This document shows, piece after piece, positions 419 through 32,127 of a stretch of DNA of 64,000 nt; positions within the stretch are counted from its first letter, which is position 1, and every line of letters begins with the position of its first letter. A program made the translations under genes and the position numbers. Below the pieces are notes generated by a model. The model did no database searches and had not been told where the DNA came from. It worked only from the letters and a program-made list of their open reading frames with translations. Source of the stretch: Natronosalvus vescus (GTDB lineage Archaea > Halobacteriota > Halobacteria > Halobacteriales > Natrialbaceae); assembly GCF_023973145.1 (NCBI RefSeq), contig NZ_CP099546.1, positions 496,001 to 560,000 of the forward strand, written 5' to 3'.

Positions 419-469
419 TTACTATAAGACGGATAAGGATCTGCCACTCTGTTTTATACCGTCGTTAGC
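419..469 (-). promoter_or_regulatory. Two tandem candidate promoters for glmS
   Basis: On the minus strand, TATAAAAC (458-451) is preceded by 5 nt and GCTAAC (469-464). Downstream, TATAGTAA (426-419) is preceded by 5 nt and CTTATC (437-432). Both have the hexamer-N5-TATA layout seen at other glycan genes here. Initiation about 27 nt downstream would give leaders of roughly 200-240 nt, consistent with glmS having an SD. No transcript data support this; it is read from sequence only. Confidence 0.5.
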
Positions 470-995
470 ACCTCAGTGGCCCGATTACCGGCGTCTTCGT
501 ATCCGGTGTAGCAGCTATCAGGTGTTCCGAGGCGTGATCACTCGACAGACGCATCGTTTCTATTCAGGAATAGTTGCAGTGAGCACGACGGTCGGTATTT
601 CCGACCGAAACTGGCAGTTTCTGGATCGCTGTGCATGCAGGAGGTGATCGTCGGCGACCTTGCACGATGCGGTGTGTCGATTCCGCTCGGATCTGGGAGT
701 CGAGTCGAGATGGTTGCGCCCAACCAGTACTGGGTGTACCGAGGGGGTGTTGCTGGCGATGGACGGGTGGTGTCGACCCTGGTGGGACGACGTCGGTCAC
801 GACTGTGTATCGTAACCGCGATCATCTCGACGACACTGTTGTCTGTAGCTGGTGGCTCTCCGGGTCGATTTCAGCCTCACCCGGCACGCGACGGTGGGCG
901 CTCGAACGGATCTGGCCCTGTGGTGGCGAGGTCGACGCACACCAGCTCGCTCGAGTCAGTCAGCGCTCGGATCCTGACTCTGCGCTTTGGTGTAT

Positions 996-1079
996 TATAG
1001 TAGCCACTGAACGTCACTGCACACCCGATCGCAAGACGTGTCTGCGATGGGTGGATAAATCGCTTCAGGTGGTACTATA
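996..1079. repeat. Palindromic repeat family A, copy 1
   Basis: This is an 84-nt imperfect palindrome with ends TATAGTAGCCACTGAA and, reading inward from the other side, TATAGTACCACCTGAA. It is centred on a GATCGC stem. The same ends and core occur in five other intergenic places in the window. Confidence 0.85.
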
Positions 1080-1490
1080 GCGGTAGCTCTCCGCTGTTTG
1101 TTGTGTTAACGACAGTCTTCGCGGCTGACCGTACTCTGTACGGTCGTAGCTGGTCTCCGATGCCAAACCGTGTTCGGACGCGCCGGCACGAACGTCTACT
1201 CGAGGGATCGAGTACGCAAAAAATAGGGGTCGGTGGTGGTGGAAGTGGTCGTAGCGTGTCACACGGTCTGTTGTAGTCGTTTACCGGTGGTTGCCGACAC
1301 TACTGGCAAGCATCGGTAAACCGGTACAACGACCCGTATCAAGGGTCGGTGGTGTGACAGGGGTGGTGTGTCGAGACTGTCGTTCCCCTGGGGACTGAAG
1401 ATGGGAGGACACCTCGACGCTCGAGGTGGCCCCCGTGACGGTGGATGGTGAGTGTGGGTTGGTGCGATGTACCCACGGTGTCAACGTGGC

Positions 1491-2132
1491 CTACGGGAGC
1501 GGCTTCTCGACGTTGAGTGGTGTGTCGTCTGTCGGCTGATCCGCGAGCGAGATGACGTTCTCCCGTCCTGCGGACATTTTGTCGATCATCCCATCTTCGT
1601 GCATCTGCGAGACGATCCGGCTCACTTTCGATTTCGACCAACCGGTCTCGGTGGTGATCTGGTTTTGCCGGATCTGGCCCTCGTTCTCGACGAGGAGCCT
1701 GATTACTTCCCCTTCGTCGCTCAGGAGCTTCGACGGTGTCGAAGCCGAGACGACGTGCTGAAACGAGTGATTGGTACTGATCTGGTGGTCGTCGGGGTCG
1801 TCATCCGATCCCGTCGAAAACGACACCGGAACGGAGATGTCGAGATCGAATCGGGACAGGACGTGCGCGAGACGAATGCCGACGAGGCCGCCGATCAGCA
1901 GGGACAACACCGTAACCAGGACGACATCCCAGACCGATGCGACGGGGCTCGCGAGGAGCCATTGCATCGCTCCGTCCGATCCCAGCGGCTCGAGGAGCCA
2001 GCGAGTAAGCGTTGCGCTCGTTCCATCCCCCTCAAGGATGGTGCGTGCGATCGGAGTTGCGTCGCCAAGGTCGCTGAGTCGACCTATCGTGGTACTGTGC
2101 CCGGCGGCGACATGGGAAGTCGAATCTATCAT
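1491..2132 (-). CDS. Membrane-anchored winged-helix (MarR/IclR-like) regulator
   Basis: This 213-residue protein has one clear transmembrane segment at about residues 69-91. An acidic linker follows, then a C-terminal winged helix at about 135-198 (LLSDEGEVIRLLVEN, then a recognition-helix region TGWSKSKVSRIVSQMHEDG). The layout matches the common haloarchaeal type of membrane-tethered HTH protein, in which the DNA-binding domain faces the cytoplasm. The target is unknown. The gene is divergent from the nucleotide-sugar dehydrogenase gene, so it may control the glycan locus, but that is inference. A TATA-like CATAATGA lies at 2219-2226 on the minus strand. Confidence 0.75.
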   Translation of the reverse strand: MIDSTSHVAAGHSTTIGRLSDLGDATPIARTILEGDGTSATLTRWLLEPLGSDGAMQWLLASPVASVWDVVLVTVLSLLIGGLVGIRLAHVLSRFDLDISVPVSFSTGSDDDPDDHQISTNHSFQHVVSASTPSKLLSDEGEVIRLLVENEGQIRQNQITTETGWSKSKVSRIVSQMHEDGMIDKMSAGRENVISLADQPTDDTPLNVEKPLP

Positions 2133-2353
2133 GGTACGGCGTTTGTGCGGTCACCGCGCAGGTCAGGGGTGGGAGCTGCCCGCGCCAACCGCACTCTCTT
2201 CTCAGTTCCATACCCCCTTCATTATGGGTTTACTCAGGCCCGTTTAACAGCCTGCTAAGCCTGCGACGGGGCTAATTTGCGAGTTTTCGCCTGAATCCGG
2301 CGACAGGCTCCCTCTCGGCGGTGTTGTGTCGGGGCTAGTCTGGCTGCAACGGT

Positions 2354-2372
2354 TTTACCGGCGCTATAGTAA
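2354..2372 (+). promoter_or_regulatory. Promoter of the nucleotide-sugar dehydrogenase
   Basis: TTTACC (2354-2359) is followed by 5 nt and TATAGTAA (2365-2372). Initiation about 27 nt downstream would leave a leader of about 90 nt that contains the two hairpins. Confidence 0.5.
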
Positions 2373-2407
2373 ACGGCTGAAAGACTGTGGGATGGTGATG
2401 AGGAATA

Positions 2408-2457: not shown

Positions 2458-2483
2458 CGACCACAACACAGATACGAGGCACC

Positions 2484-8242: not shown

Positions 8243-9262
8243 ATGTCTTCACTCCACTCGTTTCTCGCCAGTGGTGCTGGGTTGGGGCTCGGGGCCGCTG
8301 CCGATCCAGTTACCAGCCCCGTCAGAAATGTCGACGCCGGTACCCTGCCCGAGGCCGTTCCGTTCGTCGACGATCCGTGGGTCGTGGCAGCAGTCGTCGT
8401 CGTTATCGTGTGGGTCGGCTCGGGGATCCTCGTCAATCGCGTCCGTCCGCAACTCGAGGATCGACTTCGTCCGTCGACCGCGAACCTCGGCCTGGTTGTT
8501 GCTCGTATCGCCGTCGTCCTCTATGCACTCGTACCATTTGCCGGGTTGCTCGGCTTTCGTCCGCGGAACGTCCTCCTCTCCTTTACCGTGCTCTCGCTCG
8601 TCCTGGGGGCGATACTCGCCCCGGTCGGTCGAAGCTACGTGAGTGGACTCTTCATCCTCTTCAACCGGCCCTACGAGGTGGGGGACGTGGTCGAACTCGT
8701 CGAACGGGAAGAGCGCGGCTACGTCGACGATATCACCCTCGGCTACACGAAGCTCACGACGCTCGACAACTCGTTTCTGGTGGTGCCAAACGAGACGATG
8801 CGCGAACGCGACGTCCGGAACCTCTCGGCGGTCGACGAGCGACTCAGGGAGACGATCTCCGTCTGCATCACCTACGAGAGTGACCTCACTGACGCCTGTT
8901 CAATCCTCGAGGACGCCGCTCGATCGGTCGACGGCGTCATCACCGGTGGGCCTTCGATACGGGTTGGCCACACGCCGTTCCCCGCCGAACCGACGACGCT
9001 GCTCGAGTCGTTCGGCGACCACGGACTTCACCTCGTGTTGGCGTTCTGGATCGATGACCCATCCCTCGTGGCTGGGATTCGATCCGAGGTTCGACGGGCT
9101 ATCTGGGACGGTGTCGTTGACACCGACGTCGACATCGCCTACCCACACACGCACGTCGTCTTCGACCAGACCAGCGGTCGAGCCAGGATCGATCTCGGCA
9201 CATCCGATACAATCGATTCGAACGGCGAACTGTGGGCGGGGTCGGCGTCGCCGCGGGAGTGA
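8243..9262 (+). CDS. MscS-family mechanosensitive channel
   Basis: About 339 residues with two to three N-terminal transmembrane helices. The pore-helix/beta-domain region LSLVLGAILAPVGRSYVSGLFILFNRPYEVGDVVEL then gives way to GYVDDITLGYTKLTTLDNSFLVVPN, the classic MscS beta domain. The C-terminal alpha/beta domain is present, so the protein is complete. It protects the cell by releasing solute on hypo-osmotic shock. I chose the ATG at 8243; an in-frame GTG at 8171 would add 24 residues with weaker codon bias. The promoter lacks the hexamer shared by the glycan genes, so this is probably an unrelated insertion in the locus. Confidence 0.88.
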   Translation: MSSLHSFLASGAGLGLGAAADPVTSPVRNVDAGTLPEAVPFVDDPWVVAAVVVVIVWVGSGILVNRVRPQLEDRLRPSTANLGLVVARIAVVLYALVPFAGLLGFRPRNVLLSFTVLSLVLGAILAPVGRSYVSGLFILFNRPYEVGDVVELVEREERGYVDDITLGYTKLTTLDNSFLVVPNETMRERDVRNLSAVDERLRETISVCITYESDLTDACSILEDAARSVDGVITGGPSIRVGHTPFPAEPTTLLESFGDHGLHLVLAFWIDDPSLVAGIRSEVRRAIWDGVVDTDVDIAYPHTHVVFDQTSGRARIDLGTSDTIDSNGELWAGSASPRE

Positions 9263-10870: not shown

Positions 10871-11263
10871 ACGCGTCGTGTAAACGAGGTGCTGGGGGAT
10901 TATTACAGGCTCAATAAGTGGTGACTCGAGTGTGGTGTTGTCCCGTTCTCGTGAACCATCTGTCTGATAACTGACGACGTTTCGATACCGGCCGAAATTC
11001 AGTGCGTTGAACCGTCTCGATACGACACGAACGGTTACAAAACAATCGTTAAATTCCTCTTGCTATTCTGTGATGTATATGTTTCTGCATTTGAAAATTT
11101 ACATCGGAAACTGGCGTCTCAGGGTCTGTGTGGCAGATATGAAAGGTTGTGAAACAAGTTAAAGGGTGCTTGAGGTGGGGATAAAATCAGATGAAACGTA
11201 CTGTTCAGCAGTGGACTATTTCTATCCTTTATTACCTCCCCCTGATTTGTGGAGACTGGTGCG
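10871..11263. other. Divergent intergenic region, AT-rich centre
   Basis: The gap separates the divergent DUF1616 and DUF7344 genes. The stretch 11030-11210 is clearly more AT-rich than its surroundings. No RNA gene, repeat copy or convincing ORF is visible. Confidence 0.5.
10900..10918 (-). promoter_or_regulatory. Promoter of the DUF1616 gene
   Basis: On the minus strand CTTATT (10918-10913), 5 nt, then TGTAATAA (10907-10900). The predicted transcription start lies only a few bases before the ATG at 10870, giving a near-leaderless mRNA. Confidence 0.5.
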
Positions 11264-11875
11264 ATGACGTCTACACATATCAGCCCTGAAGAACAGACCC
11301 GAGCGGAACCGGCAGAGACGGATGAACCGATGTCGTCTCCGCAGGATGACGACGAGCCAACGGAGTCGTTCTCCAAGGACGAACTCTTCCACCTCCTACA
11401 AAACGAGCGCCGTCGTATGGTTCTCGAGTACCTGCGCGGTACCGAAGGCCCCGTTCGTATGCGCGACGTTGCAGAGCAGGTCGCTGCGTGGGAACACGAT
11501 ACGGATGTTCAGAACCTCACTTCCACGCAGCGCCAGCGAGTTTACATCCCGTTATACCAGTCCCATCTGTCGAAACTGGATGAGGCAGGTATTATCGACT
11601 ACCAGAAAAACCGCGGGATCGTCGAGCGCAAACCGGCAGCTGACTACGTCGATCAGTACCTGCAGGTCGAGCCCGCGGAGAACACGACGAGTACGTCGCC
11701 GTCGGTCGGAACCGGTTGGGACGATTACTACCTCGGTGCAACGGCCCTCTGTTACCTCGTGTTGCTCGGGGCCGTGTTCGAGTTGCCGTTCGTCTCGCTG
11801 CTCTCCGGTATCGGCCTGAGCGCGCTCATCTTGCTCCTGTTCACCGTCCTGACGGTGCGCCGATTCATCGAGTAA
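11264..11875 (+). CDS. DUF7344-type winged-helix protein with C-terminal membrane anchor
   Basis: A 203-residue protein. After an acidic N-terminus comes a winged helix at about residues 42-120 (DELFHLLQNERRRMVLEYL, then RVYIPLYQSHLSKLDEAGIIDYQ). The wing ends in a short strand, and two transmembrane helices occupy about 155-200. The layout is that of the haloarchaeal DUF7344 family of membrane-tethered HTH proteins. The ATG at 11264 is preferred to the GTG 15 nt earlier because a TATA-like tract (CTTTATTACC) sits about 27-35 nt upstream. It is convergent with a second, shorter member at 12002-12514. Regulation of neighbouring glycan genes is an inference. Confidence 0.78.
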   Translation: MTSTHISPEEQTRAEPAETDEPMSSPQDDDEPTESFSKDELFHLLQNERRRMVLEYLRGTEGPVRMRDVAEQVAAWEHDTDVQNLTSTQRQRVYIPLYQSHLSKLDEAGIIDYQKNRGIVERKPAADYVDQYLQVEPAENTTSTSPSVGTGWDDYYLGATALCYLVLLGAVFELPFVSLLSGIGLSALILLLFTVLTVRRFIE

Positions 11876-12730: not shown

Positions 12731-14434
12731 TCAGCGGGTAGCGGATACGGCCGTCCGTTCGGCAGGCTGGAGCCACGGGAGTGACGCCGCAGGATCCGTC
12801 GACCAGTGCTCGAGCCACGTTCCAATGTCGTTGATCCGCAGTTTGTGTCTGGCAGGGAGGGTGTGAACGTGCTCAAGGTCGGGAAGCAAGCGTTGGTCGA
12901 GATTGTACTGCTCGAACAGGTGTCTCCGATCCGGCCACGGTGGCTCGAACGAGGTGATAAATGGCGTCTTGCGGCGGACGAATCCTTCGACTTCGTTGAG
13001 GAGTGTCGTCCGATGTGGGCGATCCGGCGGATGGTGACGGAGTAACTCCGGATCGATTCGCTCGCACGCTCGAAGGAACGTCTCCGTCGTTCGGTGGGCC
13101 GGTGGCGTCTGGAGGTGCCACTCGAGCAACTCGATGTCCGTGGCCAGAAACGAAGCGAAGAAGTTGTCGGCGAGGTGGTTGTGGAAGGGAACCGACGGCT
13201 GGTTGGCGATTCCACAACACGTCAGATTGTTCTGTGTCGTCGCTGCTCGGTGGCTGACGCTCTCGACCTCGTTTCCGACGGCCTCCCTGACGAACGCCTC
13301 GGGGTCGACATCAATTGCGAGTCGGTCGGTCAACTCACGGCTCGCGTCGCGATCGTAGCCGTACTTCTGGAGCAACACGTCGACTGGGTTGGGATCCGGA
13401 TCGAGTCGTTCGAACGGAACACGCTTGCCGAGAACGTCGACCCCGTCCTGGGCGGTGAAATGGCCCCGGTAAAACGTGTCAGAGAGCAGGCCGTGATAGA
13501 TGGTGTCGACGGCCATCTCGTCCGTGTATCCTGCGTGGTGGATGTGGAGTGACTCTTTCATTCCCTGTGAGTACTGTACCTTCGACCGGTCGGCGTACAG
13601 ATACCGGTCGTCGGGCTGGAACGCGACGTGGTCGACACCGTACTGTGTTGAGACCCGTTTTGCACCGGCAACCTCCTGGGCGTCTAGTGAGCCGACCGTA
13701 TAGCTGACCTCGAGATCCGGAATCGCTGAGAGGAAGATTCGCGAGTCGTATCCTGCAGAGAGGAGCAATCCCTTTCTGCCGGGAAGAATCGATCGCCGAT
13801 CAAGCGCACGCTCGAGGCGGGAAGCGAGTTCCTCGACGTAGTTGAACTCCCGGGGGCTGTAGACGAACCGATCGAACGAATCGACGTCGGTCGCCGTCAA
13901 GCGACTGTCGAGTGGCAGTCGATGCATGCCCTCAACAGCGGTCTTCGTCCCAAGAATTAATCCGAGGTGGAGGAACTCGAGCACCCCCTCTCGACGTGGT
14001 GTCGGCTCCCCGAGCGTGGCTGCGACGGTCGCTGCGTCGGTGCCGAACAGCCGAACGCCCGGTTCGTTCGTGTAGAAACACTCCCGTGACCGAACCGGGT
14101 CAGTCGCGACGAACGCGTCGCCGTCGGCCGGGTCGACGACGGCGAGGTAGGAGCCGTTGAAGCTCTCGAACGCGTCCGGCCCGTCGGTCTCAACGCGTTC
14201 GAGCAGCCATCGAGCGGTGTTCGTACCGCCGCTCGGGGCGTAGGCTTCACCCCAGACGACACACGTGCCAGCGTCGCTCTCGTATCGAGCGGACCAGCCG
14301 GGGGTTCCCAGGCCTGGATCTCTGATGCCGACTGTGATACTCGAACCGGTGAGCACCGCGTCGAACTCGCTTACCGATCTGAATCGTTCGAAGGTCTCTC
14401 TCCCGCCGAACACGCCGAAAAGTTCCTTGTTCAT
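12731..14434 (-). CDS. Asparagine-synthase-like protein lacking the glutaminase cysteine
   Basis: A 567-residue protein with the two-domain layout of AsnB. The N-terminal Ntn-like domain begins MNKELFGVFGG instead of MCG, so the catalytic Cys2 is missing and glutamine hydrolysis is not expected. The C-terminal domain carries a PP-loop-like LLLSAGYDSRIF near residues 222-233, a variant of the SGGxDS AMP-binding loop. Such proteins occur in archaeal and bacterial surface-glycan clusters, where they may amidate uronic acids or act on unknown acyl substrates using free ammonia. Amidation of the acidic sugar made by the dehydrogenase at 2484 is an attractive but unproven role. Confidence 0.75.
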   Translation of the reverse strand: MNKELFGVFGGRETFERFRSVSEFDAVLTGSSITVGIRDPGLGTPGWSARYESDAGTCVVWGEAYAPSGGTNTARWLLERVETDGPDAFESFNGSYLAVVDPADGDAFVATDPVRSRECFYTNEPGVRLFGTDAATVAATLGEPTPRREGVLEFLHLGLILGTKTAVEGMHRLPLDSRLTATDVDSFDRFVYSPREFNYVEELASRLERALDRRSILPGRKGLLLSAGYDSRIFLSAIPDLEVSYTVGSLDAQEVAGAKRVSTQYGVDHVAFQPDDRYLYADRSKVQYSQGMKESLHIHHAGYTDEMAVDTIYHGLLSDTFYRGHFTAQDGVDVLGKRVPFERLDPDPNPVDVLLQKYGYDRDASRELTDRLAIDVDPEAFVREAVGNEVESVSHRAATTQNNLTCCGIANQPSVPFHNHLADNFFASFLATDIELLEWHLQTPPAHRTTETFLRACERIDPELLRHHPPDRPHRTTLLNEVEGFVRRKTPFITSFEPPWPDRRHLFEQYNLDQRLLPDLEHVHTLPARHKLRINDIGTWLEHWSTDPAASLPWLQPAERTAVSATR

Positions 14435-14531
14435 ACTCAGGTCACTGTGTGTGGTGTGCGATTGGCGGACACGTACTGGTAGTTGCCCGCACGCACGGTC
14501 ACGTTGATGGTATCTGTGCCGGTTTCCCCAT

Positions 14532-14550
14532 TTACTATAACGTCGTTAAA
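14532..14550 (-). promoter_or_regulatory. Promoter of the asparagine-synthase-like gene
   Basis: On the minus strand TTTAAC (14550-14545), GACGT, TATAGTAA (14539-14532). Transcription is expected to begin about 70 nt before the ATG. Confidence 0.5.
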
Positions 14551-14658: not shown

Positions 14659-14677
14659 TCTATCGGATCTATAATAA
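14659..14677 (+). promoter_or_regulatory. Promoter of the first NodB-like lipoprotein gene
   Basis: TCTATC (14659-14664), 5 nt, TATAATAA (14670-14677). The expected transcription start is just before the ATG at 14709. Confidence 0.45.
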
Positions 14678-14708
14678 TAGGGGCTCTGTCGGTATGGCTA
14701 CGTGTCCA

Positions 14709-16187: not shown

Positions 16188-16631
16188 ATGTCGCTACGGA
16201 CGCGTCTGGCGGTACTCACGCCGCTGATTGCCGTTATCACGCTCCCGGTCGCGATGCTCGCGGCCATATTCGCCGGGCCGACCAACGCACTCGCGGTCGT
16301 GATCGTCGGCTGGCTCCTGTTGACGCCCGCGTCGGCGATTCTGTTCGGTCATCCTGGCGATGCGTTCGGCACCGCCGATCTCGACGAGGAGATCGAGTCG
16401 GTAGTTCGGGAACGAGTGCGAGAGCGCCTCGACGGGCAGACGACGGTGGACGAAGGGACGGAAACCGACCCACTGGCGACCCTCCGGGAGCGCTACGCGA
16501 GTGGGGAGATCGACGACGTCGAACTCGAGCGTCGACTCCACATCTTGCTCGAACTCGACGACGCCGATGCCGACGACGTGGCCTCCATCGAGCGAGTGAA
16601 GACGACGCTCGAGCCTGATCTCGAAACGTGA
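16188..16631 (+). CDS. SHOCT-domain small membrane protein
   Basis: A 147-residue protein. Two transmembrane helices fill about residues 8-60, an acidic linker follows, and a C-terminal SHOCT motif (LATLRERYASGEIDDVELERRLHILLEL) is at about 100-128. SHOCT domains occur at protein termini and are thought to help oligomerisation; no enzymatic function is known. I chose the ATG at 16188, with a T-rich TATA-like tract (ATCTTTTTGC) about 27 nt upstream, over a longer reading from 16071 that has no support. A second SHOCT protein is at 23827. Confidence 0.75.
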   Translation: MSLRTRLAVLTPLIAVITLPVAMLAAIFAGPTNALAVVIVGWLLLTPASAILFGHPGDAFGTADLDEEIESVVRERVRERLDGQTTVDEGTETDPLATLRERYASGEIDDVELERRLHILLELDDADADDVASIERVKTTLEPDLET

Positions 16632-17959: not shown

Positions 17960-17988
17960 TCCACCCCTCTCTCTCGCCACGGACGTAT

Positions 17989-18007
17989 TTACTATCGCGA
18001 CTGTAAC
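17989..18007 (-). promoter_or_regulatory. Promoter of the aspartoacylase-like gene
   Basis: On the minus strand GTTACA (18007-18002), GTCGC, GATAGTAA (17996-17989). The expected start lies within about 10 nt of the ATG at 17959. The hexamer is a weaker match (A in the last position). Confidence 0.4.
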
Positions 18008-18241: not shown

Positions 18242-19234
18242 CTATTCTGCGGTCGACGTTGCACCGACGAGCGCCTGTCGACCCAAGACGGCTGCTACGA
18301 GGACGAGGAAAACCGAGGCCACGACCGGGAGCGGACGCCGCCGAACACCCGTTCCGGCGACCCAGAGGAGACCGGGGTAATGACGCGCGGAGACGGCCGC
18401 CCGTCGCAGATGCCACGCACCTCGTAGCAGTCGCCCTTCCGCGAGATACCGTTTCGCGATCACGAGCTCGTGGCTCGCGTACACGTCGTATCCCAGGGTC
18501 TCGAAGTACTCGACGGCGTCTTCGTGTTTCTCGAGGTACTGACGGTCGGCCCTGTGGACGACGTTTGCAGGCGGGTGGCCGGTTTCTTCGCGAATCACGA
18601 GCGGTTCGTCGACGTAGGCGAGCTTTCCTTCGTACAGTACTCGAACGCAGAACTCGGGATCCTGGAACCGGTCGAGCGACTCGTCGAAGCCGTCGATCTC
18701 TCTGGCGACGTCCGTCCGAACGAGCAGTGTCGAGCCGGCACCGGGCTGTACCGCGTCGGTGAGTATCTCTCCAATCAGTTCCTCGTCGCCCTCCATCGTC
18801 GGTTCCTCGTCCGTTCGCGACAGCGCGTCGGCGATTAGCCCCCGTACGTGTCCGGTCGTTCCCGATAGCTCGTAGGCCGTATCGCAGTAGACGCCGACCC
18901 AGTCGGCCGAACGGCCCTCGAGGGCGTTCAGTTGTTTCTCCAGTTTCTTGCGGTGCCAGTAGTCGTCGGAGTCGAGAAAGGCGACGTACTCCCCACGAGC
19001 GTGGTCGATGCCCGTGTTCCGGGCGACGTTGGCCCCCTGGTTCGTCGCGTGAACGACGGGGCGAACGCGAGGATCGTCGTAGCTCGCTAACAGCGACGCG
19101 GTGTCGTCGGTCGAGCCGTCGTCGACGACGACAACCTCGAGATCCTCGATCGTCTGTTCTAGGGCACTGTCGATGGCGTGTGAGAGCGTGGCCGCTCTGT
19201 TGTACGTCGGGATGATCACGCTGACACGTGGCAT
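18242..19234 (-). CDS. Glycosyltransferase family 2
   Basis: A 330-residue inverting GT-A enzyme. It begins MPRVSVIIPTYNRAATL, continues VVVDDGSTDDTASLL (nucleotide binding) and has the metal-binding FLDSDDYW, with the general-base region near residues 190-200 (FQDPEFCVRVL). About 20 hydrophobic residues near the C-terminus (VVASVFLVLVAAVLGRQAL) probably anchor it to the membrane. It transfers a sugar from a nucleotide donor in the cytoplasm. Promoter at 19262-19280. It stands alone, with a beta-helix gene upstream on the same strand. Confidence 0.9.
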   Translation of the reverse strand: MPRVSVIIPTYNRAATLSHAIDSALEQTIEDLEVVVVDDGSTDDTASLLASYDDPRVRPVVHATNQGANVARNTGIDHARGEYVAFLDSDDYWHRKKLEKQLNALEGRSADWVGVYCDTAYELSGTTGHVRGLIADALSRTDEEPTMEGDEELIGEILTDAVQPGAGSTLLVRTDVAREIDGFDESLDRFQDPEFCVRVLYEGKLAYVDEPLVIREETGHPPANVVHRADRQYLEKHEDAVEYFETLGYDVYASHELVIAKRYLAEGRLLRGAWHLRRAAVSARHYPGLLWVAGTGVRRRPLPVVASVFLVLVAAVLGRQALVGATSTAE

Positions 19235-19261
19235 TTTCCGGTAGTTTAGGGACAGCGGGGA

Positions 19262-19280
19262 TTATTATGCTGGCGCTAAG
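19262..19280 (-). promoter_or_regulatory. Promoter of the GT2 gene
   Basis: On the minus strand CTTAGC (19280-19275), GCCAG, CATAATAA (19269-19262). The predicted start of transcription coincides with the ATG at 19234 within a few bases, a leaderless arrangement. Confidence 0.55.
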
Positions 19281-19292: not shown

Positions 19293-20786
19293 TCATCGGT
19301 CGTCACGAACGCCGCTGGGGAAGTCGTTGTTGCTGAGTGCGACGCTCCCCGAGTTGCTGAGTATGCGTAGCGAGACGCGATCAGCATACGATTCGCTGTA
19401 GCAGTCTTCGATTACCACGTCGTCCGAGCCGTTGACGACGATCGGGATGTGGTTCGTCCGGAAGTCGCTGTTGGCGACGCGGTAGTTATCGCCCCGGAGC
19501 TCGAGGCCGCCTCGATCTTCGCCGGGTTGATCGATAGAGAGCCCATCGAATTGACAGTCGTTCCGTTCGCAGTAGACCGTGTGCCGAATGGGTGATCCAC
19601 TCGCGTCTCCCGTGATGGCGACGTCTCGAAGGCTGACCTCGCCAGCGTCCTCACCGAGGATACGGAAGGCGTACCCGCTGCCGTCGATGTCGAGATCCAC
19701 GTTTTCGATCGCCGTCGGGCCCGCTTCCGGATCGATCCGGATTCCCGAGTTACGGCGATTACCGATCGAGATCCGCGCGTTCGAGATCGATGCCTGGTCG
19801 ACGCCGTTCATCACCCTGATCGCGTCGCCGTTGGGCTCGGGCATCCTGATATCGACGCCGTCGATCTCAAAGCTGGTGCCGTAATCGAGCCGGATCGGAT
19901 GCTGACGAGTCGCCCGCTCGGGATTCTCGTCGACGACCACGATCGCGTCCCTGATCGTCCCTCGCGGCCCGGACAGGCGGATCGAGGCGGTATCGCTGTT
20001 CTCGAACCAGCCACCTCGAACGTCGACCTCGCCGTACTCGGTCGATTTGTAGAGGCCGGTGTCGGGGAACCCGCCGAGCGTACAGTCCCTGAAGACGAGC
20101 GTTCCGCGATGGTTGTTGACGAGAATTCCCGTCGGGCCTTTCCACATATTTCCACTGTTTGGGGTATCCTCGACGTGACGGCCACCGTCGAACGCCCGGA
20201 AACACTCGACGCGTCCGTGGCCACCGGGCTCGTGTATGTTGAACAGGCCAGGCCCCCAGGTGCCGCTGTCGTGAACGCCGTAAATCGAGACGTCTTTCAC
20301 GAGGAGCCCGTCTTCGACCTCGGCGTTGATTACGCGGATTCCCGTATGCTCGGCAGTCTGATCGACGGCGAACCCCTCGAACCGGAGATCGCGACCGGGT
20401 CTCGAGGCGGTTCCCAGCCTGAACAGTCGATACTGGGGGCCGTCGAACTCGTGGTAGTTCGCCGGCACCAGCGTCGCGTTCTCGCCGACGAACCCGACGT
20501 TCTCGAAGTTGGTGAACCGGAGCTGTTCGTCCATGTAGTAGCGCCCTTCCGGGAATTTCAGGAGCGTGTCGTCACCAACCACGTCTCGCAGAACTGGAGT
20601 AATGGATTCCTCCCCCGTATTGTCCGCCCCCGCGTCGGTGACGTCCACAACGGTTCCGTACTGCTCGTCGTCGTTCGATGCGGCCGCCGCCCCCGAGACA
20701 GAAAGCGCAGCGCCAATGCCAACGATACAGCCCTTCACATACGATCGCCGACCGAGTCGACCCGTTCGTGATTCGTTCGAACTCAC
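19293..20786 (-). CDS. Tat-exported right-handed beta-helix protein (pectate-lyase-like), paralogue 1
   Basis: A 497-residue exported protein. GRLGRRSYVKGCIVGIGAALSVSG is a twin-arginine signal. The mature part opens with VDVTDAGADNTGEESITPVL and LLKFPEGRYYMDEQL, the entry of pectate-lyase-superfamily beta-helix proteins. Many short repeating rungs follow (for example IRDAIVVVDEN and IENVDLDIDGS). A distinctive block HDSGTWGPGLFNI is shared with the paralogue at 26930. Relatives act on acidic polysaccharides as lyases or C5-epimerases; catalytic residues cannot be assigned here. It probably works on the exported glycan. Confidence 0.82.
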   Translation of the reverse strand: MSSNESRTGRLGRRSYVKGCIVGIGAALSVSGAAAASNDDEQYGTVVDVTDAGADNTGEESITPVLRDVVGDDTLLKFPEGRYYMDEQLRFTNFENVGFVGENATLVPANYHEFDGPQYRLFRLGTASRPGRDLRFEGFAVDQTAEHTGIRVINAEVEDGLLVKDVSIYGVHDSGTWGPGLFNIHEPGGHGRVECFRAFDGGRHVEDTPNSGNMWKGPTGILVNNHRGTLVFRDCTLGGFPDTGLYKSTEYGEVDVRGGWFENSDTASIRLSGPRGTIRDAIVVVDENPERATRQHPIRLDYGTSFEIDGVDIRMPEPNGDAIRVMNGVDQASISNARISIGNRRNSGIRIDPEAGPTAIENVDLDIDGSGYAFRILGEDAGEVSLRDVAITGDASGSPIRHTVYCERNDCQFDGLSIDQPGEDRGGLELRGDNYRVANSDFRTNHIPIVVNGSDDVVIEDCYSESYADRVSLRILSNSGSVALSNNDFPSGVRDDR

Positions 20787-20812
20787 GGAACTCCCTGTGA
20801 AGTGGGATCACT

Positions 20813-20831
20813 TGGCTATATTCTCGGTAAT
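20813..20831 (-). promoter_or_regulatory. Promoter of beta-helix paralogue 1
   Basis: On the minus strand ATTACC (20831-20826), GAGAA, TATAGCCA (20820-20813). The predicted start lies at or just before the ATG at 20786. Confidence 0.45.
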
Positions 20832-20980: not shown

Positions 20981-20999
20981 GCTATGATCTGTATAAGAA
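20981..20999 (+). promoter_or_regulatory. Promoter of the second NodB-like lipoprotein gene
   Basis: GCTATG (20981-20986), 5 nt, TATAAGAA (20992-20999). The TATA box is centred about 31 nt before the ATG at 21027. The hexamer matches at its central TA only. Confidence 0.4.
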
Positions 21000-21026
21000 A
21001 GGTCGGATAGTACGAAGTGAGGGTCG

Positions 21027-22331
21027 ATGACGTACAGAAACCGACGATCGTTCGTTACCGCCGTTGCAGCGACCGGAACGTTGGGGCTCGCAGGATGCCT
21101 CTCGGACGCGAGCGAGTGGTACGGCGACGACGACAACGACGACGACTCGACCCCCTCCGAAGGAGACGACGACTCGTCACCGTCTGACCCGTCTGATCCA
21201 TCAGACGACGGTGATGACTCGTCGGAACTCGGGCACTTGCCGGGGGACTCCATCGACGACTTCGAGTCACTCGACGAGTGGGTGACGATGCTCGACGCGG
21301 GCGCGCTCGAGGCCGCCAGCGACGACCCCTACGCCGGCAGCCAGTCCGCCCACCTCACCGCAGATGAGGGGACGAGCTACGCCGGAATCTACCGGACGTT
21401 CCCCGGTGGAACCGACCTGAGCGACTCCAACTTCTCGGTCGCCGTCAAATTCGCCGAGCAAGAACAGCTCCAGCTCACCCTCGAGGTGTACGCACCGAAC
21501 TCCCGGAACACGCTCACGATGCGTCGGACGCTCACCGGGCCTGCTGACAGCTGGGTTCGCGTCGACTTCGGTGTCACGAGCATCGATACGCAGCCGGATC
21601 TCTCCGACGTCCGCGAGGTCAGGCTGATCGCCCGCCGACGCGGGAGCGACGAGGGGCCGATCGATTGCCAGCTCGACGACCTGCGTGCAGTCGAACGTCC
21701 CGAGCGGGGCAGGGTGATGTTCCTGTTCGATGGCACCCTCGAGTCCCACTACACGCACGCGTTCGAGCACATGAACGAGTTCGGATTCGGCGGCGTCGAG
21801 GCCGTCATTCCGGAGGCCGTCGGCGAGGACGGCCGGCTCACGATCGACCGGCTCGACGATATGAGCGAGGCTGGCTGGGATATGGCTGCCCGCCCGCGAA
21901 CGGGTGCGCGAAACATCCACGAGTTCACCCCCGAAGAACAGGAAGGGATGATCCGGCGCACGCGCGCCTACCTCGAGAACCGCGGGTTCGAAGACGGCGC
22001 TGACCACTTCGTCACGCCTCGAAACCTGCTCGGCCCAGAGACGATGGAGCTCGTCCGGGAGTACCACGAGCAGGCGTTCCGCTACGGCGGCGGCCCGAAC
22101 GGGCTCCCGCTGACCGACCCGCACAACCTCGGCGTCTTCTCCGGGGCAGCGGACGAAGAGACCAAACAGTACGTCGACTACGCGGCCGACTACGGCCAGC
22201 TCGCCGTGCTCCACTTCGAGGAGATCGGTGAGGACGGCCTGAGCGAAGACGCGTTCGTCGACCTCCTCGAGTACGTCGAGGAGAGTGACGTGGACGTCGT
22301 CACCGCGACCGAACTGCTGGAGGGCGAATAA
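21027..22331 (+). CDS. Tat/lipobox lipoprotein, NodB-like fold with degenerate active site
   Basis: A 434-residue paralogue of the 14709 product with the same order of parts. They are the signal RNRRSFVTAVAAT with lipobox LAGC, an Asp/Ser-rich spacer, a beta-sandwich carbohydrate-binding-like region (DDFESLDEWVTM to QLDDLRAVERP), and a NodB-like C-terminal domain. The catalytic motifs have drifted. The Asp-Asp motif is now MFLFDGTLESHY and the HGTHNE position reads AARPRTGA. Deacetylase activity is therefore doubtful; a binding or scaffolding role is possible. A GT2 gene follows 58 nt downstream on the same strand, suggesting cotranscription. Confidence 0.75.
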   Translation: MTYRNRRSFVTAVAATGTLGLAGCLSDASEWYGDDDNDDDSTPSEGDDDSSPSDPSDPSDDGDDSSELGHLPGDSIDDFESLDEWVTMLDAGALEAASDDPYAGSQSAHLTADEGTSYAGIYRTFPGGTDLSDSNFSVAVKFAEQEQLQLTLEVYAPNSRNTLTMRRTLTGPADSWVRVDFGVTSIDTQPDLSDVREVRLIARRRGSDEGPIDCQLDDLRAVERPERGRVMFLFDGTLESHYTHAFEHMNEFGFGGVEAVIPEAVGEDGRLTIDRLDDMSEAGWDMAARPRTGARNIHEFTPEEQEGMIRRTRAYLENRGFEDGADHFVTPRNLLGPETMELVREYHEQAFRYGGGPNGLPLTDPHNLGVFSGAADEETKQYVDYAADYGQLAVLHFEEIGEDGLSEDAFVDLLEYVEESDVDVVTATELLEGE

Positions 22332-23826: not shown

Positions 23827-24252
23827 ATGAAACAACCGGAGTGGTTCCGGTCGCTTCCGACCTGGGCCAGGGTCATCGGTGGACTGCTCGGTCTCCTGGT
23901 CGTCATGACTGGGCTCTCGATGGTACTTGGTGTCGTCTTCGCCGGAATCGCTCTGGGGCTCGAGTTCGGTAGCGTAACGTTGGGGCTCCTCGCTGCCGTC
24001 GTCGGGTTGGTACTCGTCCTCGTTCCAACCGCCGCACTGGTGATGATCCGCACCGGTGACGACCGTGGTGTCGACGCTGGAGACGAGGTCGAAACGCTCA
24101 AAGAGCGATATCTCGCCGGTGAGATCGACGAGGCGACGTTCGAGCGACGCGTCACCGAACTGCTCACCGCCGCAGATGCATCCCAGGAGTCGGCCGCGAC
24201 CGATTTCGATGGGCGGGACGTCGAACGGATGCCGAAGCGCGAACGACAGTGA
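23827..24252 (+). CDS. SHOCT-domain small membrane protein 2
   Basis: A 141-residue protein with the same plan as the 16188 product. A tryptophan-containing N-terminus (MKQPEWFRSLPTWARV) is followed by two transmembrane helices (about 15-75). The SHOCT motif (VETLKERYLAGEIDEATFERRVTELL) is at about 90-118. The ATG at 23827 begins the conserved part; an earlier in-frame start adds nine unlikely residues. Function unknown. Confidence 0.75.
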   Translation: MKQPEWFRSLPTWARVIGGLLGLLVVMTGLSMVLGVVFAGIALGLEFGSVTLGLLAAVVGLVLVLVPTAALVMIRTGDDRGVDAGDEVETLKERYLAGEIDEATFERRVTELLTAADASQESAATDFDGRDVERMPKRERQ

Positions 24253-26768: not shown

Positions 26769-26865
26769 GGTGTCATCCCCCCGTACCAACACGACGACGT
26801 GACGACTCCTCGTCGAGAGACCCGCTGCACGCTCACAATATTTTGACAAGGGGTTCCGCCGGGCC

Positions 26866-26884
26866 TTATTATAGGGCTGTTAAA
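26866..26884 (-). promoter_or_regulatory. Promoter of the flippase gene
   Basis: On the minus strand TTTAAC (26884-26879), AGCCC, TATAATAA (26873-26866). Transcription should begin near 26842, which argues against the TTG start at 26849. Confidence 0.6.
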
Positions 26885-26929: not shown

Positions 26930-28591
26930 CTACTCGAGGGTGTTCGCCCAGGTGTCCACGCCGCTCGCACCGAGGTCACGAATGCCGTTGACCAGTCGGT
27001 TCTTCCTGAACGAGGGGTTGCTCGAGGAGGAGTACAGACAGACGGCGTGACGGCCGCCGGTGGACTCGAGGTCGGAATCACGCACGAGGTTGTCAGCACC
27101 GATGTCGATGTAGGGGTACTGGCTGGCCCGGAGCGTACTCCGGTAGACGGTCGTGTCTGCTGCCGTGCTGACGATGGCGTTTCGACTCGCTCCATCGCGC
27201 CCGGGCTGGGCAATGTCGACGTTGCTGAACCGGCAGTTGTCCCGTTCGACCCGAACTCCGTCGCGGAAGCCACTGGCGTCGCCAGCGCGCCCGGAGACCG
27301 AGAGGTGTTCGGCGAGGACTCGATCGTTCGTATTTCCGCCACGGATCCACAGCGGATAGCCGCCCACAGTTTCGTGGACGATTTCTGAGTTCGTGATTGT
27401 GACTTCGCCACACTCCGGCGAGAGGACGATTCCGTGGTTGATGTCGTTGCCACGCATGTCGACTCGAACGCGCTCGATACGAGCGCTTTGACAGGAGTTC
27501 ATCGTGGAGATCGCGTGGCTCGTCGGCATCGGCGACGACACTTCGACGGCAGCGCCGTATATCCGGATGTTATTGCCGTTTTCGACCCGGATTCCCCGTT
27601 GCGTCTTGTCCTCCGGGCGGGTGTTGTCGACCCTGATCGTTGGCCACCTGATCTCGCTGTTGTCACCGCCGACGCGGATGTTCGCGCCATTGCTGTTCCG
27701 GTAGAGTCCTCCGAGGACGCGTACCCGGCCACCGCCACCAACGGCGTAGAGACCGTTGTTCGGGAACGCCCCAACGACGCAATGTCTGAACGTGAGGGTG
27801 CCTTTGTTCTGGTTGGCCTCGATGCCGATTGGGCCGCGCCAGCGGTTACCGGCGTTCGGCGTGTTGTTGATCCAGGCAGCGCCGTCGGGTGCTCGGAACC
27901 GTTCGACGATCCCGCTCCCGCTCGGGTCGGTGATGTTGAACAGACCAGGGCCCCACGTTCCGCTGTCGTGTTGGCCGTGGATCGTAACGTCACGCACGGC
28001 CATGTCCTGGGAGATATTGGCCTCGATGACACGGATTCCCGTATCTGGGGCCGTCTGATCGACGTCGAAGCCCTCGAATCGGAGCCGTCGACCCGGCCTG
28101 TACGTGACGCCGAGACGGAACAGCCGGAACCGCGGGCCGTCGAAGTCGTAGTAGTTCGCCGGCACGAGCGTCGCGTTCTCGCCGACCATCCCGAAGTTAT
28201 CGAATCCGGTGTACCGGAACTGTTTGTCCATGTAGTACCGGCCTTCGGGGAACACGAGCAGCGTGTCGTCCGCTCGCAGATTCTCCAGAACGGGAGTAAT
28301 CGACTCCGATCCCGTGTTGTCCGCACCCGCTTCGACGACGTTGATGACGTTCGAGTAGTCGTCGTAGTGGTGTGAGTACTGTCCCGTCGAGGCACTCGCC
28401 GTCGAGGCACCCGTCGTCGAGAGCCCGAGCAGCGAGGCACCGGCGACCGCCATTCCCCCCATGAACGTTCGCCGTGATCGACGGCCGATCGAAGATTGTT
28501 CGGACGAGTTGTGCGTGCAGTTTGAATCGATCGAGTGAGTTTCAGTCAAATTCTCAGAATCTGAGTCTATCGAGCCGCTTCGTTTCACCAT
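26930..28591 (-). CDS. Tat-exported right-handed beta-helix protein, paralogue 2
   Basis: A 553-residue paralogue of the 19293 product. An unusually long polar n-region (about 36 residues) precedes the twin-arginine motif GRRSRRTFMGGMAVAG. The mature part has the same entry (VVEAGADNTGSESITPVL, LLVFPEGRYYMDKQF) and the shared block HDSGTWGPGLFNI, followed by beta-helix rungs to the C-terminus. The two proteins align across most of their length; this one is longer in the signal and in late rungs. The likely substrate is the exported polysaccharide, as a lyase, epimerase or structural binder; catalytic residues are not identifiable. Confidence 0.82.
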   Translation of the reverse strand: MVKRSGSIDSDSENLTETHSIDSNCTHNSSEQSSIGRRSRRTFMGGMAVAGASLLGLSTTGASTASASTGQYSHHYDDYSNVINVVEAGADNTGSESITPVLENLRADDTLLVFPEGRYYMDKQFRYTGFDNFGMVGENATLVPANYYDFDGPRFRLFRLGVTYRPGRRLRFEGFDVDQTAPDTGIRVIEANISQDMAVRDVTIHGQHDSGTWGPGLFNITDPSGSGIVERFRAPDGAAWINNTPNAGNRWRGPIGIEANQNKGTLTFRHCVVGAFPNNGLYAVGGGGRVRVLGGLYRNSNGANIRVGGDNSEIRWPTIRVDNTRPEDKTQRGIRVENGNNIRIYGAAVEVSSPMPTSHAISTMNSCQSARIERVRVDMRGNDINHGIVLSPECGEVTITNSEIVHETVGGYPLWIRGGNTNDRVLAEHLSVSGRAGDASGFRDGVRVERDNCRFSNVDIAQPGRDGASRNAIVSTAADTTVYRSTLRASQYPYIDIGADNLVRDSDLESTGGRHAVCLYSSSSNPSFRKNRLVNGIRDLGASGVDTWANTLE

Positions 28592-28613
28592 TGATATTCA
28601 CTTTGGTTAGAGT

Positions 28614-28632
28614 AACCTATCGGGCCAATAAG
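28614..28632 (-). promoter_or_regulatory. Promoter of beta-helix paralogue 2
   Basis: On the minus strand CTTATT (28632-28627), GGCCC, GATAGGTT (28621-28614). The predicted start of transcription coincides with the ATG at 28591. Confidence 0.4.
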
Positions 28633-29299: not shown

Positions 29300-29423
29300 G
29301 CGCTCGAGTAGTCGCAAACGTCGGGCTCTACAGTACCGATAGTCGCCCGCTGACTGCCGGCATCAGGCCGCAGCTATCGAGTATCGGTTCGGTCTCACGT
29401 AATCGGCTGCGAGAAAATCGCGG

Positions 29424-30092
29424 TCAGCGGTGATTTCGTCGACCGGGTGTTCGATCGTTCTCGAGGGTGGCGGCGATCAACTCGGCGACGGCACGACGAT
29501 GGCGCTGTGAGACAGCCGACGTGGAGATGCCGAGCTTTTCTGCCAGGTAATCCTGTGACACCGCTCGTGGAATCTCGTAGTAGCCGGCGTAGTACGCCAT
29601 CGAGAGAATCTCGTGTTGTTGTTCGGTGAGAAAGTAGGTACCGTCGTCAGAGACCATCGAATCGTAGAGCTGGGTCATCCGGAACGATATCGAGTGGCTT
29701 CGACAGTAGTCCTGAAACGCGGTCAGCGCGTCGCGGTCGGGCATATGGGTTCGTACCATCCAGTCATCTTCGCCGCTCGTAATCCGGAAGACGAACACCC
29801 CATAGGCGGCGCACTTCTCTGGCAGTAAGTCGAGATCCGTCTCGACGGTGATTCGATAGATTGCCCGGTTTTCGAACGTGGCGACGTGTGTCGGGTTCGA
29901 CACGGTGTGATCGTCCACCATCGTCTCTTCGATGGCATCGTATTCACCGCCGAACACGGACACGAAACACAGGTCGTTCTGGGCAGCCGTGGCACTGTAC
30001 TCGTACCGAATCGTCACGTCAGGATGTGTCTCGATCGTCGGCATTAACACGAGATCGGGGTGATCGATCGAGAGGGTTGCAACGAATCCCAT
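29424..30092 (-). CDS. Bat-type HTH_10 transcriptional regulator
   Basis: A 222-residue protein. The N-terminal two thirds is a haloarchaeal bacterio-opsin-activator-like sensor region (ITVETDLDLLPEKCAAYGVFVF and others). The C-terminal HTH_10 domain begins LTEQQHEILSMAYYAGYYEIPRAVSQ and ends with the helix-turn-helix LAEKLGISTSAVSQRHRRAV. I chose ATG 30092; a GTG 6 nt earlier is possible. No ligand domain can be named. Its own promoter carries the hexamer-TATA layout of the glycan genes, so it may belong to the same circuit. Confidence 0.85.
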   Translation of the reverse strand: MGFVATLSIDHPDLVLMPTIETHPDVTIRYEYSATAAQNDLCFVSVFGGEYDAIEETMVDDHTVSNPTHVATFENRAIYRITVETDLDLLPEKCAAYGVFVFRITSGEDDWMVRTHMPDRDALTAFQDYCRSHSISFRMTQLYDSMVSDDGTYFLTEQQHEILSMAYYAGYYEIPRAVSQDYLAEKLGISTSAVSQRHRRAVAELIAATLENDRTPGRRNHR

Positions 30093-30134
30093 GGCCACTT
30101 GTGTACATCTTGTCCAGTTATGAACAAACGCTCA

Positions 30135-30153
30135 TACTTATACGGCGAGTAAC
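30135..30153 (-). promoter_or_regulatory. Promoter of the bat-type regulator
   Basis: On the minus strand GTTACT (30153-30148), CGCCG, TATAAGTA (30142-30135), about 45 nt before the start codon. Confidence 0.4.
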
Positions 30154-30308
30154 CACTGTTGCAATGGTTGCACGTATCACAAATCGATAGCTGGCGTCGC
30201 ATTCTGGCAGTCATTGCACCCTGATCAGCATCCATTGCGTCCCACGCCGACTCAATACAAACCGATTATTCCTGCTCCGAATCAGCAGGATACGTTGGGG
30301 GTCGCTGT

Positions 30309-31985
30309 TCAGTTCATGTAGCCCAGGTCGGCGAGTCGCTGTGTGACCGCCTCGTCGGCGTCGTCTCGAGGCGTCGATGTCGCCCCTTCGTACTGTTCGT
30401 ACGACTCGGCACCTATGGCGTCGACGACCGGAATTACGTCGCCGTCCATCCGATCGCTGTGAGGGAGTCCAAACGCCGCCATGATCGTCGGTGCAACGTC
30501 GAAGAGGTGTGCTCGATCGATTGGCGCAGCCTCGTCGACGCCCGCTCCCATCGCGGCGAACACGCCGTCGAGTTTGTGGTTCCACGGCTCTGCCGGAGCG
30601 AAGTACTCTCCGTGGAGTTGCTCCGACAGCGCGTGTTCGAAGTCGGTCGGGATCGTCACGATGTCGACGGTCTCGTCTTCGTGCTCGCCGTGGAAATACG
30701 CCTCACGTGGGGCGACTGTCTCGAACACGGGTTCCCCTTCGGGCGTCGTCACGCCCTCGAGCGTCTCGATGAGATCCTCACGAACCGACTCGTACTCCGT
30801 CGGCGGAACGACGCCGTTTGGCTCACGTCCCTCGAGGTTGATTCGAACGCCGAGTTCGGTTCGTGCACGGACGTACGCCGTCGACGCTTCGAAATCGACC
30901 TGTTCGTTCGCCGTTCGCGAGACGTTGGTCGGTGCGTACTTGATCGCGACGTCAGCGAGGCCGACCCGCTCGAGGGCGACTCTGGCGCGACGTGCGGTGA
31001 GTCCGAATCGAGCAGCGATGGCGGCGGCACGTTCGGTCATCGTCGGTTCCCAGCTATCGCAGTTTTTCCCCTCGCGAAGCTGATTGCGCATCGGCGTCCA
31101 CGACGGCATCCCCTTCCCGCCCGTCGTCGTCTCGACGTATCCTTCGTCACGGAGGAAATCGTTGATACGGAACTCGTAGCCCTCGTACGGCCCCATTCCG
31201 TGATCGCTCACCAGGAAGACGGTGTCGGGATCGCAGTGGTCGAGAACCGCTCCAATCTGTTCGTCGGTCGCTTCGTACACCGTGTCCACGCGTTCTTCGT
31301 CACCCTCGAACTCGTGAAAGACCGTGTCGGGCTTTTGAAACTGAACGAAGCCGAAATCCGGGTCGTACTCGTCAGCGAGGTACCGGAACGCCTCCCCGCG
31401 CATCCGGATCAGCCGCTGGTACTCCGCGATTTTCTCGTCGTCAGACACCGAGTCGTCGTCGCGGGCGTAGTTTGGATAGACGCGATACTCACCAATGGCG
31501 TCGCGAACGTCCTCGAGCAGTCCCGATGGGTGACAGTTCGGATCTTCGGGACCGATGAACCCCGGGATCAAGGCACCCTCGAAACTGTCCGGTGGGTGAG
31601 TGATGGGTGCGTTGACCACGACGCTCGAGTACCCGTGCTGGTTGAGTAGCGTCCACACTGGATGTTCATCGACGTCGTCGCTACTCGTGACGTGCCAGTC
31701 GTAGCCGTCGTAGCCAACGAACCCGATGGCACCGTGTTTCCCCGGATTGACGCCCGTGTACATCGATGGCCAGGCGCTCGGCGTCCACGGCGGGATCTGT
31801 GACTCGAGCGGGGCACTCACGCCCGTGGTACACAGGTGTTCGATGTTCGGGATTCGATCGGCTTCGAAGAGGCGTTCGAACACTGGCAAACAGCCCGCGT
31901 CGATGCCGATGAGAAGCACGTCCATCCCGTCGGTTCCGTTCCGTTTGGTCGATACGTCTCCGTTTTGAGGGGGCTTCCGAGTCAT
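30309..31985 (-). CDS. Alkaline-phosphatase-superfamily phosphodiesterase/nucleotide pyrophosphatase
   Basis: About 558 residues. DVLLIGIDAG (first metal Asp), PPWTPSAWPSMYTGVNPGKHGAIGF (nucleophile Thr/Ser region), and VSDHGMGPYEGYEF (metal Asp-His) are the core of type I phosphodiesterase/nucleotide pyrophosphatase proteins. The family hydrolyses phosphodiesters or transfers phospho-groups to glycans. Archaeal members often sit in surface-glycan loci, with unknown substrates. There is no signal peptide, so it is probably cytoplasmic. The ATG at 31925, immediately before the first strand, is an alternative start. Promoter at 32109-32127. Confidence 0.82.
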   Translation of the reverse strand: MTRKPPQNGDVSTKRNGTDGMDVLLIGIDAGCLPVFERLFEADRIPNIEHLCTTGVSAPLESQIPPWTPSAWPSMYTGVNPGKHGAIGFVGYDGYDWHVTSSDDVDEHPVWTLLNQHGYSSVVVNAPITHPPDSFEGALIPGFIGPEDPNCHPSGLLEDVRDAIGEYRVYPNYARDDDSVSDDEKIAEYQRLIRMRGEAFRYLADEYDPDFGFVQFQKPDTVFHEFEGDEERVDTVYEATDEQIGAVLDHCDPDTVFLVSDHGMGPYEGYEFRINDFLRDEGYVETTTGGKGMPSWTPMRNQLREGKNCDSWEPTMTERAAAIAARFGLTARRARVALERVGLADVAIKYAPTNVSRTANEQVDFEASTAYVRARTELGVRINLEGREPNGVVPPTEYESVREDLIETLEGVTTPEGEPVFETVAPREAYFHGEHEDETVDIVTIPTDFEHALSEQLHGEYFAPAEPWNHKLDGVFAAMGAGVDEAAPIDRAHLFDVAPTIMAAFGLPHSDRMDGDVIPVVDAIGAESYEQYEGATSTPRDDADEAVTQRLADLGYMN

Positions 31986-32108
31986 CGTATCATCTGGTTG
32001 CACTCCTGTTCGTCCACTGACCGGTCGATTTCCCACTCACCGATCTGTTACGAACGAGTTCCTGTGCGAACCGGTTATTCACGAGAGGACGAAACAACCC
32101 TGCACACT

Positions 32109-32127
32109 TCATTATCGAGCTGTTAAA
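32109..32127 (-). promoter_or_regulatory. Promoter of the phosphodiesterase gene
   Basis: On the minus strand TTTAAC (32127-32122), AGCTC, GATAATGA (32116-32109). The hexamer is identical to those of the flippase and asparagine-synthase-like genes. Confidence 0.55.

Follow-up and report, generated by a model that had tools for sequence, protein, structure and literature searches.

The 64,000-nt stretch of DNA analysed here (the window) is C1:496001-560000 of the 3.84-Mb single-contig genome of Natronosalvus vescus, and its left half is a surface-polysaccharide cluster. The cluster contains glmS (which runs leftwards from about position 190 and leaves the window) together with nucleotide-sugar dehydrogenase, DUF354, group-1 and group-2 glycosyltransferase (GT2), DUF1616, asparagine-synthase-like (12731-14434, with a TIGR01536 match below the cut-off), PgaB-like deacetylase, aspartoacylase-like, beta-helix, flippase, Bat-type regulator and phosphodiesterase genes; gene 21027-22331 and the GT2 gene at 22390 form one operon. 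The original prediction for this DNA held that a hexamer, YTTANC, placed exactly 5 nt upstream of the TATA box marks the glycan-gene promoters as one regulon. We found that the element is a composite, G-YTTANC-N5-KATARTRAW, in which a GYTTANC site is followed by a fixed five bases and then by a non-consensus TATA box. Its copies in the window are given below, with the fraction of orthologous promoters that carry it.

418-437, minus strand: element before glmS, CTTATC-CGTCT-TATAGTAAA, exact; orthologs 27/29.
450-469, minus strand: second, weak copy before glmS, GCTAAC-GACGG-TATAAAACA, degenerate, score 11.6.
2218-2237, minus strand: degenerate copy before the DUF7343 winged-helix gene, CTGAGT-AAACC-CATAATGAA, score 15.6; orthologs 15/25; additional to the sites of the original prediction.
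2354-2373, plus strand: element before the nucleotide-sugar dehydrogenase operon, TTTACC-GGCGC-TATAGTAAA, exact; orthologs 29/30.
10899-10918, minus strand: element before the DUF1616 gene, CTTATT-GAGCC-TGTAATAAT, degenerate; orthologs 25/28.
14531-14550, minus strand: element before the asparagine-synthase-like gene, TTTAAC-GACGT-TATAGTAAA, exact; orthologs 23/27.
14659-14678, plus strand: element before the NodB/PgaB-like deacetylase gene 14709-16061, TCTATC-GGATC-TATAATAAT, degenerate; orthologs 19/22.
17988-18007, minus strand: element before the aspartoacylase-like gene, GTTACA-GTCGC-GATAGTAAA, degenerate; orthologs 14/15.
19261-19280, minus strand: element before the GT2 gene 18242-19234, CTTAGC-GCCAG-CATAATAAT, exact; orthologs 30/30.
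20812-20831, minus strand: weak copy before the beta-helix gene 19293-20738, ATTACC-GAGAA-TATAGCCAA, score 10.1, or 12.3 with a matrix trained on other families.
20981-21000, plus strand: element before gene 21027-22331, GCTATG-ATCTG-TATAAGAAA, degenerate; orthologs 24/24.
26865-26884, minus strand: element before the flippase gene, TTTAAC-AGCCC-TATAATAAG, exact; orthologs 27/29.
28613-28632, minus strand: weak copy before the beta-helix gene 26930-28591, CTTATT-GGCCC-GATAGGTTA, score 14.8, not recovered at 12 or more by the matrix trained on other families.
30134-30153, minus strand: element before the Bat-type gene, GTTACT-CGCCG-TATAAGTAT, degenerate; orthologs 20/26.
32108-32127, minus strand: element before the phosphodiesterase gene, TTTAAC-AGCTC-GATAATGAA, exact; orthologs 19/20.

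Six copies have the exact form YTTANC-N5-[TCG]ATARTRA (starting at 437-, 2354+, 14550-, 19280-, 26884- and 32127-), and the remaining copies are degenerate at the same spacing. The original consensus, expected at all of the promoters it listed, was therefore too strict: the spacing held throughout, including at both glmS copies and at the two beta-helix genes, where the second glmS hexamer (GCTAAC) is degenerate and weak and the beta-helix copies (20831- and 28632-) are weak. Its three TTTAAC copies on the minus strand lie exactly at 14545-14550, 26879-26884 and 32122-32127, and the promoters it had named as lacking the element (those of MscS, the SHOCT genes, both DUF7344 genes, tctC and others) gave no match. 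TTTAAC by itself was rejected as a signal, as it is found in the window at chance level, without enrichment (7 found versus 6.0 expected). The TATA half was first taken as TTWWWW, which gave no match in the window and scattered matches in the genome; the true half is ATARTRA.

In the whole genome, YTTANC-N6-ATARTRA matched seven times, all at C1:494265-528127 (34 kb), and a looser pattern matched ten times, eight of them inside the same 34 kb. As a negative control, the reversed pattern had no match in the whole genome. A background of 40 stretches of 20 kb from the same genome (0.8 Mb) held one strict match at spacer 6. In the loci of 29 relatives plus the window (1.25 Mb), the spacer between YTTANC and ATARTRA was 6 in 157 cases; spacers 5 and 7 did not occur, and any other spacer up to 20 occurred in at most two cases each, which bears out the exact placement of the hexamer 5 nt from the TATA box. 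Because the pattern was refined on the window, tests outside it served as independent validation. A matrix built solely from loci outside the family (Haloferax, Halobellus, Halosimplex and others) found 13 sites at 12 bits or more at 1-33 kb of the window versus 0.63 expected from background, and no site at 33-64 kb. In the scan that scored the copies listed above, no score at 33-64 kb exceeded 9.7. Equal frequency before unrelated genes, which would have spoken against the original prediction, was not seen, since none of 350 ordinary background promoters scored 14 or more. As possible off-cluster members of the regulon, seven matches at 15 or more were considered in the same genome and rejected, as none precedes a gene. 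Chance as the source of the pattern is excluded by the confinement of all seven genome matches to the cluster, by the out-of-family matrix and by the background promoters.

The search in relatives gave matches in 59 of 100 related genomes, mostly clustered in single loci of 25-45 kb, and the element was found again in the corresponding polysaccharide clusters of dozens of related species. We compared the cluster loci of 29 relatives and the window (30 genomes). Almost every transcription unit of these clusters is marked by a copy, DUF7344 excepted, and among orthologs the element is absent or nearly absent from operon-internal genes. The copies at different genes within one genome are unrelated outside the element, which is also seen in front of different genes in Haloferax, Halobellus and Halosimplex. 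Taken together, the enrichment, the exact spacing, the ortholog conservation in 30 genomes and the near absence elsewhere strongly support one regulon; these sequence comparisons show a predicted regulon-specific, composite promoter class conserved across several haloarchaeal families, by which the cluster would be switched as one.

Two further arrangements of the element were observed. An off-cluster copy, CTTAACGGCTGTATAATAA (L130:8335-8354, minus strand), has the same sequence at G002 C1:2838177 and G006 C1:271322; it is conserved in these three same-genus genomes and precedes a 260-aa protein without a Pfam match. At one and the same locus, Haloferax and Halobellus have a back-to-back pair of divergent copies whose hexamers lie only 5-6 nt apart (L174:17377/17383, L188:17699/17705 and L209:23502/23508). 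Within the cluster of the window, the genes for MscS (8243-9262) and two SHOCT proteins (16188-16631 and 23827-24252) lack the element. None of the 29 relatives has any of these three genes in its cluster; the genes are probably later insertions and can therefore be used as internal controls.

Ordinary promoters of the genome have a CGAAA B recognition element (BRE) and a TTTWT TATA box at -30 to -26, which matches the published consensus (PMC4983044). The TATA half of the element is as special as the hexamer, with KATARTRA versus TTTWT in the rest of the genome. The distance from the hexamer to the start codon peaks at 45-46 nt (88 of the 203 sites for which a start falls at 30-70 nt), and KATARTRAW therefore occupies the TATA position, a little ahead of where ordinary promoters have their TTTWT. 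The TTA of the hexamer ends 8 bases ahead of KATARTRA, outside the usual BRE range. The BRE score at the marked promoters varied with the register, and one of the registers equates the last C of the hexamer with the C of the BRE; a clear loss of the BRE was dropped as a claim because of this dependence. In addition, 21 sites scored 14 or more on both strands in a single register, and about 4% of all sites are clearly palindromic; the near-palindromic copies lie mostly at orthologous ugd or aspartoacylase-like promoters (L072:8931, L081:11507, L093:8241, L186:12431 and others). A universal dyad operator was rejected because so few sites are palindromic.

The following regulator-like proteins encoded in the window were considered as readers of the element.

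11264-11875, plus strand: DUF7344 protein (PF24035), candidate regulator with a predicted winged helix and two predicted C-terminal membrane helices.
29424-30092, minus strand: Bat-type (BAT + HTH_10) regulator, second candidate, with the element in its own promoter.
1491-1967, minus strand: DUF7343 winged-helix protein, a frequent second regulator-like gene of the clusters.

The fetched stretches include DUF7344 for 29 of the 30 clusters; for the thirtieth (G025) the gene lies just past the end of the stretch. DUF7344 also turned up at the additional clusters that were checked; among them, those of G073, G087 and G097 have it but contain neither the cluster GT2 nor the 659-aa protein nor the Bat-type gene. 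In G081, one motif stands alone (L230; C1:2387726), away from every cluster gene searched for, and a second DUF7344 gene lies about 700 nt from it, at 2388463. The sole fetched motif region without DUF7344 is that of G052, which has two scattered matches. Among 40 complete genomes with at least three matches, 38 have a DUF7344 match at E<=1e-38; of the remaining two, G043 has DUF7344 inside its cluster and G069 has a motif count at the control rate. A close Bat-type match was found in 28 of the same 40. Across 82 complete genomes, motif number correlated with the best match at rho 0.81 for DUF7344 and 0.66 for the Bat-type protein, and outside the family at rho 0.62 (p 0.001) versus 0.17 (p 0.41), where the p-values are guides only, as the genomes are non-independent. 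In a reverse test, loci were collected by DUF7344 similarity alone. Strict copies were present in all 38 Natrialbaceae cluster loci (93 matches in 782 kb) and in 18 of 40 more distant loci, including Haloferax and Halobellus (45 matches in 779 kb), and the reversed pattern did not occur in either set. In Haloferax mediterranei, DUF7344 (E6P09_RS17100, WP_004060974.1) lies in a glycan cluster of the megaplasmid pHME505 with about ten copies of the element. Taken together, these comparisons indicate that, among the DNA-binding candidates, essentially only DUF7344 accompanies the element throughout the clusters checked, and with the predicted fold they point to DUF7344 (11264-11875) as the best candidate regulator, ahead of the Bat-type protein. 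DUF7343 was rejected as regulator, with no match in the G093 cluster and weak generic matches elsewhere; its relatives have an apparent N-terminal membrane segment.

The product of 11264-11875, annotated so far only as hypothetical or unknown, matched DUF7344 with E 2.1e-30 and 105 bits against a cut-off of 27.8. Its AlphaFold model has a winged helix with predicted local distance difference test (pLDDT) values of 94-97 by block and two hydrophobic C-terminal helices predicted at 151-171 and 182-202. The closest solved folds are winged-helix regulators (RosR, MarR, HxlR and ArsR; Z 8-10), and the top match is to RosR-DNA complexes of Halobacterium salinarum (Z 10.1 over 88 residues, root-mean-square deviation 2.7, 9% identity). 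A Foldseek search with the model gave weak E-values (best 0.02), and the DUF7344 profile had no match among PDB sequences. RosR, the best structural match of the DUF7344 winged helix, is itself a haloarchaeal regulator and, in contrast to the membrane location predicted for DUF7344, a soluble protein with other target genes. The promoter of DUF7344 lacks the element in 26 of 28 orthologs and has it in two.

We propose, with a probability of roughly 0.55, that DUF7344 reads the element, recruits transcription factor B (TFB) and TATA-binding protein (TBP), and turns the cluster on as one regulon. The distribution and the predicted fold make it likely that DUF7344 binds the hexamer; if it does, the analogy to known systems makes it fairly probable that it would act as an activator aiding TFB and TBP on a weak core, with the hexamer as a plausible activator site. 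From the model we infer that DUF7344 is membrane-tethered, its winged-helix domain being held at the membrane by the two C-terminal helices. This domain would bind the hexamer alongside TFB and TBP and recruit them to the weak core promoter, and the DUF7344 gene itself would be transcribed from an ordinary, element-free promoter. We likewise infer the signal and the direction of the response, in which a membrane or cell-surface cue would turn the glycan genes on.

Precedents for such a mechanism are provided by EarA (weak BRE), ArnR (membrane tethering) and bop (non-consensus TATA box with an upstream site). EarA of the Methanococcus maripaludis archaellum operon is a winged-helix protein with a TACATA hexamer upstream of a weak BRE/TATA; it is thought to recruit TFB (PMC13286277, PMC6396743), and BRE mutations bypass it (PMC13286277). 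EarA sites are repeated at one promoter, whereas here about a dozen units each have a single copy at fixed spacing, and no membrane helices have been described for EarA. ArnR/ArnR1 of Sulfolobus acidocaldarius, an activator controlling surface structures, combines an N-terminal helix-turn-helix with two C-terminal transmembrane helices (PMC6396743), an arrangement similar to that predicted for DUF7344; unlike DUF7344, ArnR carries HAMP and sensor domains, and its binding sites are two TCGAC-N5-GTCGA boxes located further upstream. At bop of Halobacterium, the upstream activator sequence of Bat is a short site just upstream of a non-consensus TATA box without a recognisable BRE, and it is common to a small co-regulated gene set (PMC2121645, PMC1447603). 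It differs in sequence as far as can be checked and serves purple-membrane genes rather than glycan genes, and the Bat-type protein is dispensable here for the presence of the motif. CsmR of Haloferax volcanii is a haloarchaeal regulator with a promoter-proximal motif beside the TATA box at many promoters (PMC13286277), but its motif is TATCA-N4-TGATA and its targets are motility and shape genes.

Several observations weigh against this proposal. Strict copies are missing within 10 kb at about half of the more distant DUF7344 loci, so that different sites may be read by other DUF7344 proteins. The cluster GT2 was absent from all 12 motif-less genomes of the family, so that motif, DUF7344 and cluster genes have been gained and lost together; presence and absence within the family therefore cannot single out the regulator, and an attempt to separate DUF7344 from the cluster enzymes in this way failed. 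Winged-helix proteins of this shape are often repressors, the near-palindromic copies are unpredicted by a simple hexamer model, and whether a BRE is scored as absent depends on the register. DUF7344 relatives with no copy of the element in their neighbourhood were seen at L182, L193, L197, L199, L205, L206 and L207.

The same regulon and protein could also work in the opposite sense, with DUF7344 as a repressor, the element as an operator across the TATA region and a surface signal that releases it. The predicted fold is nearest to RosR, MarR, HxlR and ArsR proteins, many of which are repressors, the TATA half is more constrained than an ordinary TATA box, and the TTA and TRA at the ends of the element form a weak inverted repeat, and 21 sites score on both strands. 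We consider repression unlikely, since clear palindromes are so rare and mostly orthologous, the hexamer is upstream of the TATA box, in the position bound by EarA and other archaeal activators, and the core promoter deviates from the genome consensus.

It is considerably less probable that the hexamer is read by the cluster's Bat-type (HTH_10) protein, in the manner of Bat at the bop upstream activator sequence, which is also joined to a non-consensus TATA box, in a promoter that has no recognisable BRE (PMC2121645, PMC1447603). This protein is found in most Natrialbaceae clusters and has the element before its own gene in most orthologs. However, it is missing from at least nine motif-bearing clusters (genomes with motif and DUF7344 but no Bat-type gene in the cluster: G009, G033, G036, G056, G073, G087, G097, G042 and G081), and outside the family its match strength does not follow motif number. 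The Bat-type regulator implied by the original prediction is thus a weaker candidate than DUF7344, which accompanies the motif where the Bat-type gene is absent.

We give similarly little weight to the element being the core promoter for one TFB/TBP pair, with hexamer and TATA half as BRE/TATA variants and no classical activator. Several haloarchaeal TFBs and TBPs have been proposed to select promoter classes (PMC2121645), and hexamer and TATA are mutually fixed. Against this, promoters served by a general factor should be spread over many loci, whereas those with the element lie in a single cluster; the seven scattered off-cluster sites precede no genes, and the hexamer TTA lies past the usual BRE. 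That there is no regulatory site, only ordinary promoters or recent common descent of the cluster, would account for the likeness of orthologous promoters within close genomes, but it merits almost no credence, being refuted by the spacing and out-of-family tests, by copies of one genome that are unrelated beyond the element, by the ordinary promoters without it and by its recurrence before different genes in Haloferax, Halobellus and Halosimplex.

Archaeal activator sites next to the TATA box have been described before; what is new is one private composite promoter at nearly every unit of a cluster, together with DUF7344 as a new candidate regulator family. In the openly licensed papers that we searched we found no description of the element or of a DUF7344 function. 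As a tentative extension of activation by DUF7344, held at slightly less than even odds, the family may consist of membrane-tethered one-component surface sensors that switch polysaccharide clusters through a private GYTTANC-N5-KATARTRAW in place of the BRE-TATA core. Little is known about how haloarchaea control exopolysaccharide and surface glycan synthesis, and the analysis predicts a regulon with roughly a dozen units in each genome, marked by a precise, mutable element, and names one candidate regulator. Since the element and DUF7344 also occur in tractable Haloferax species, the prediction is directly testable there, and it would give a handle on the control of exopolysaccharides and biofilms and on the construction of activator-dependent archaeal core promoters.

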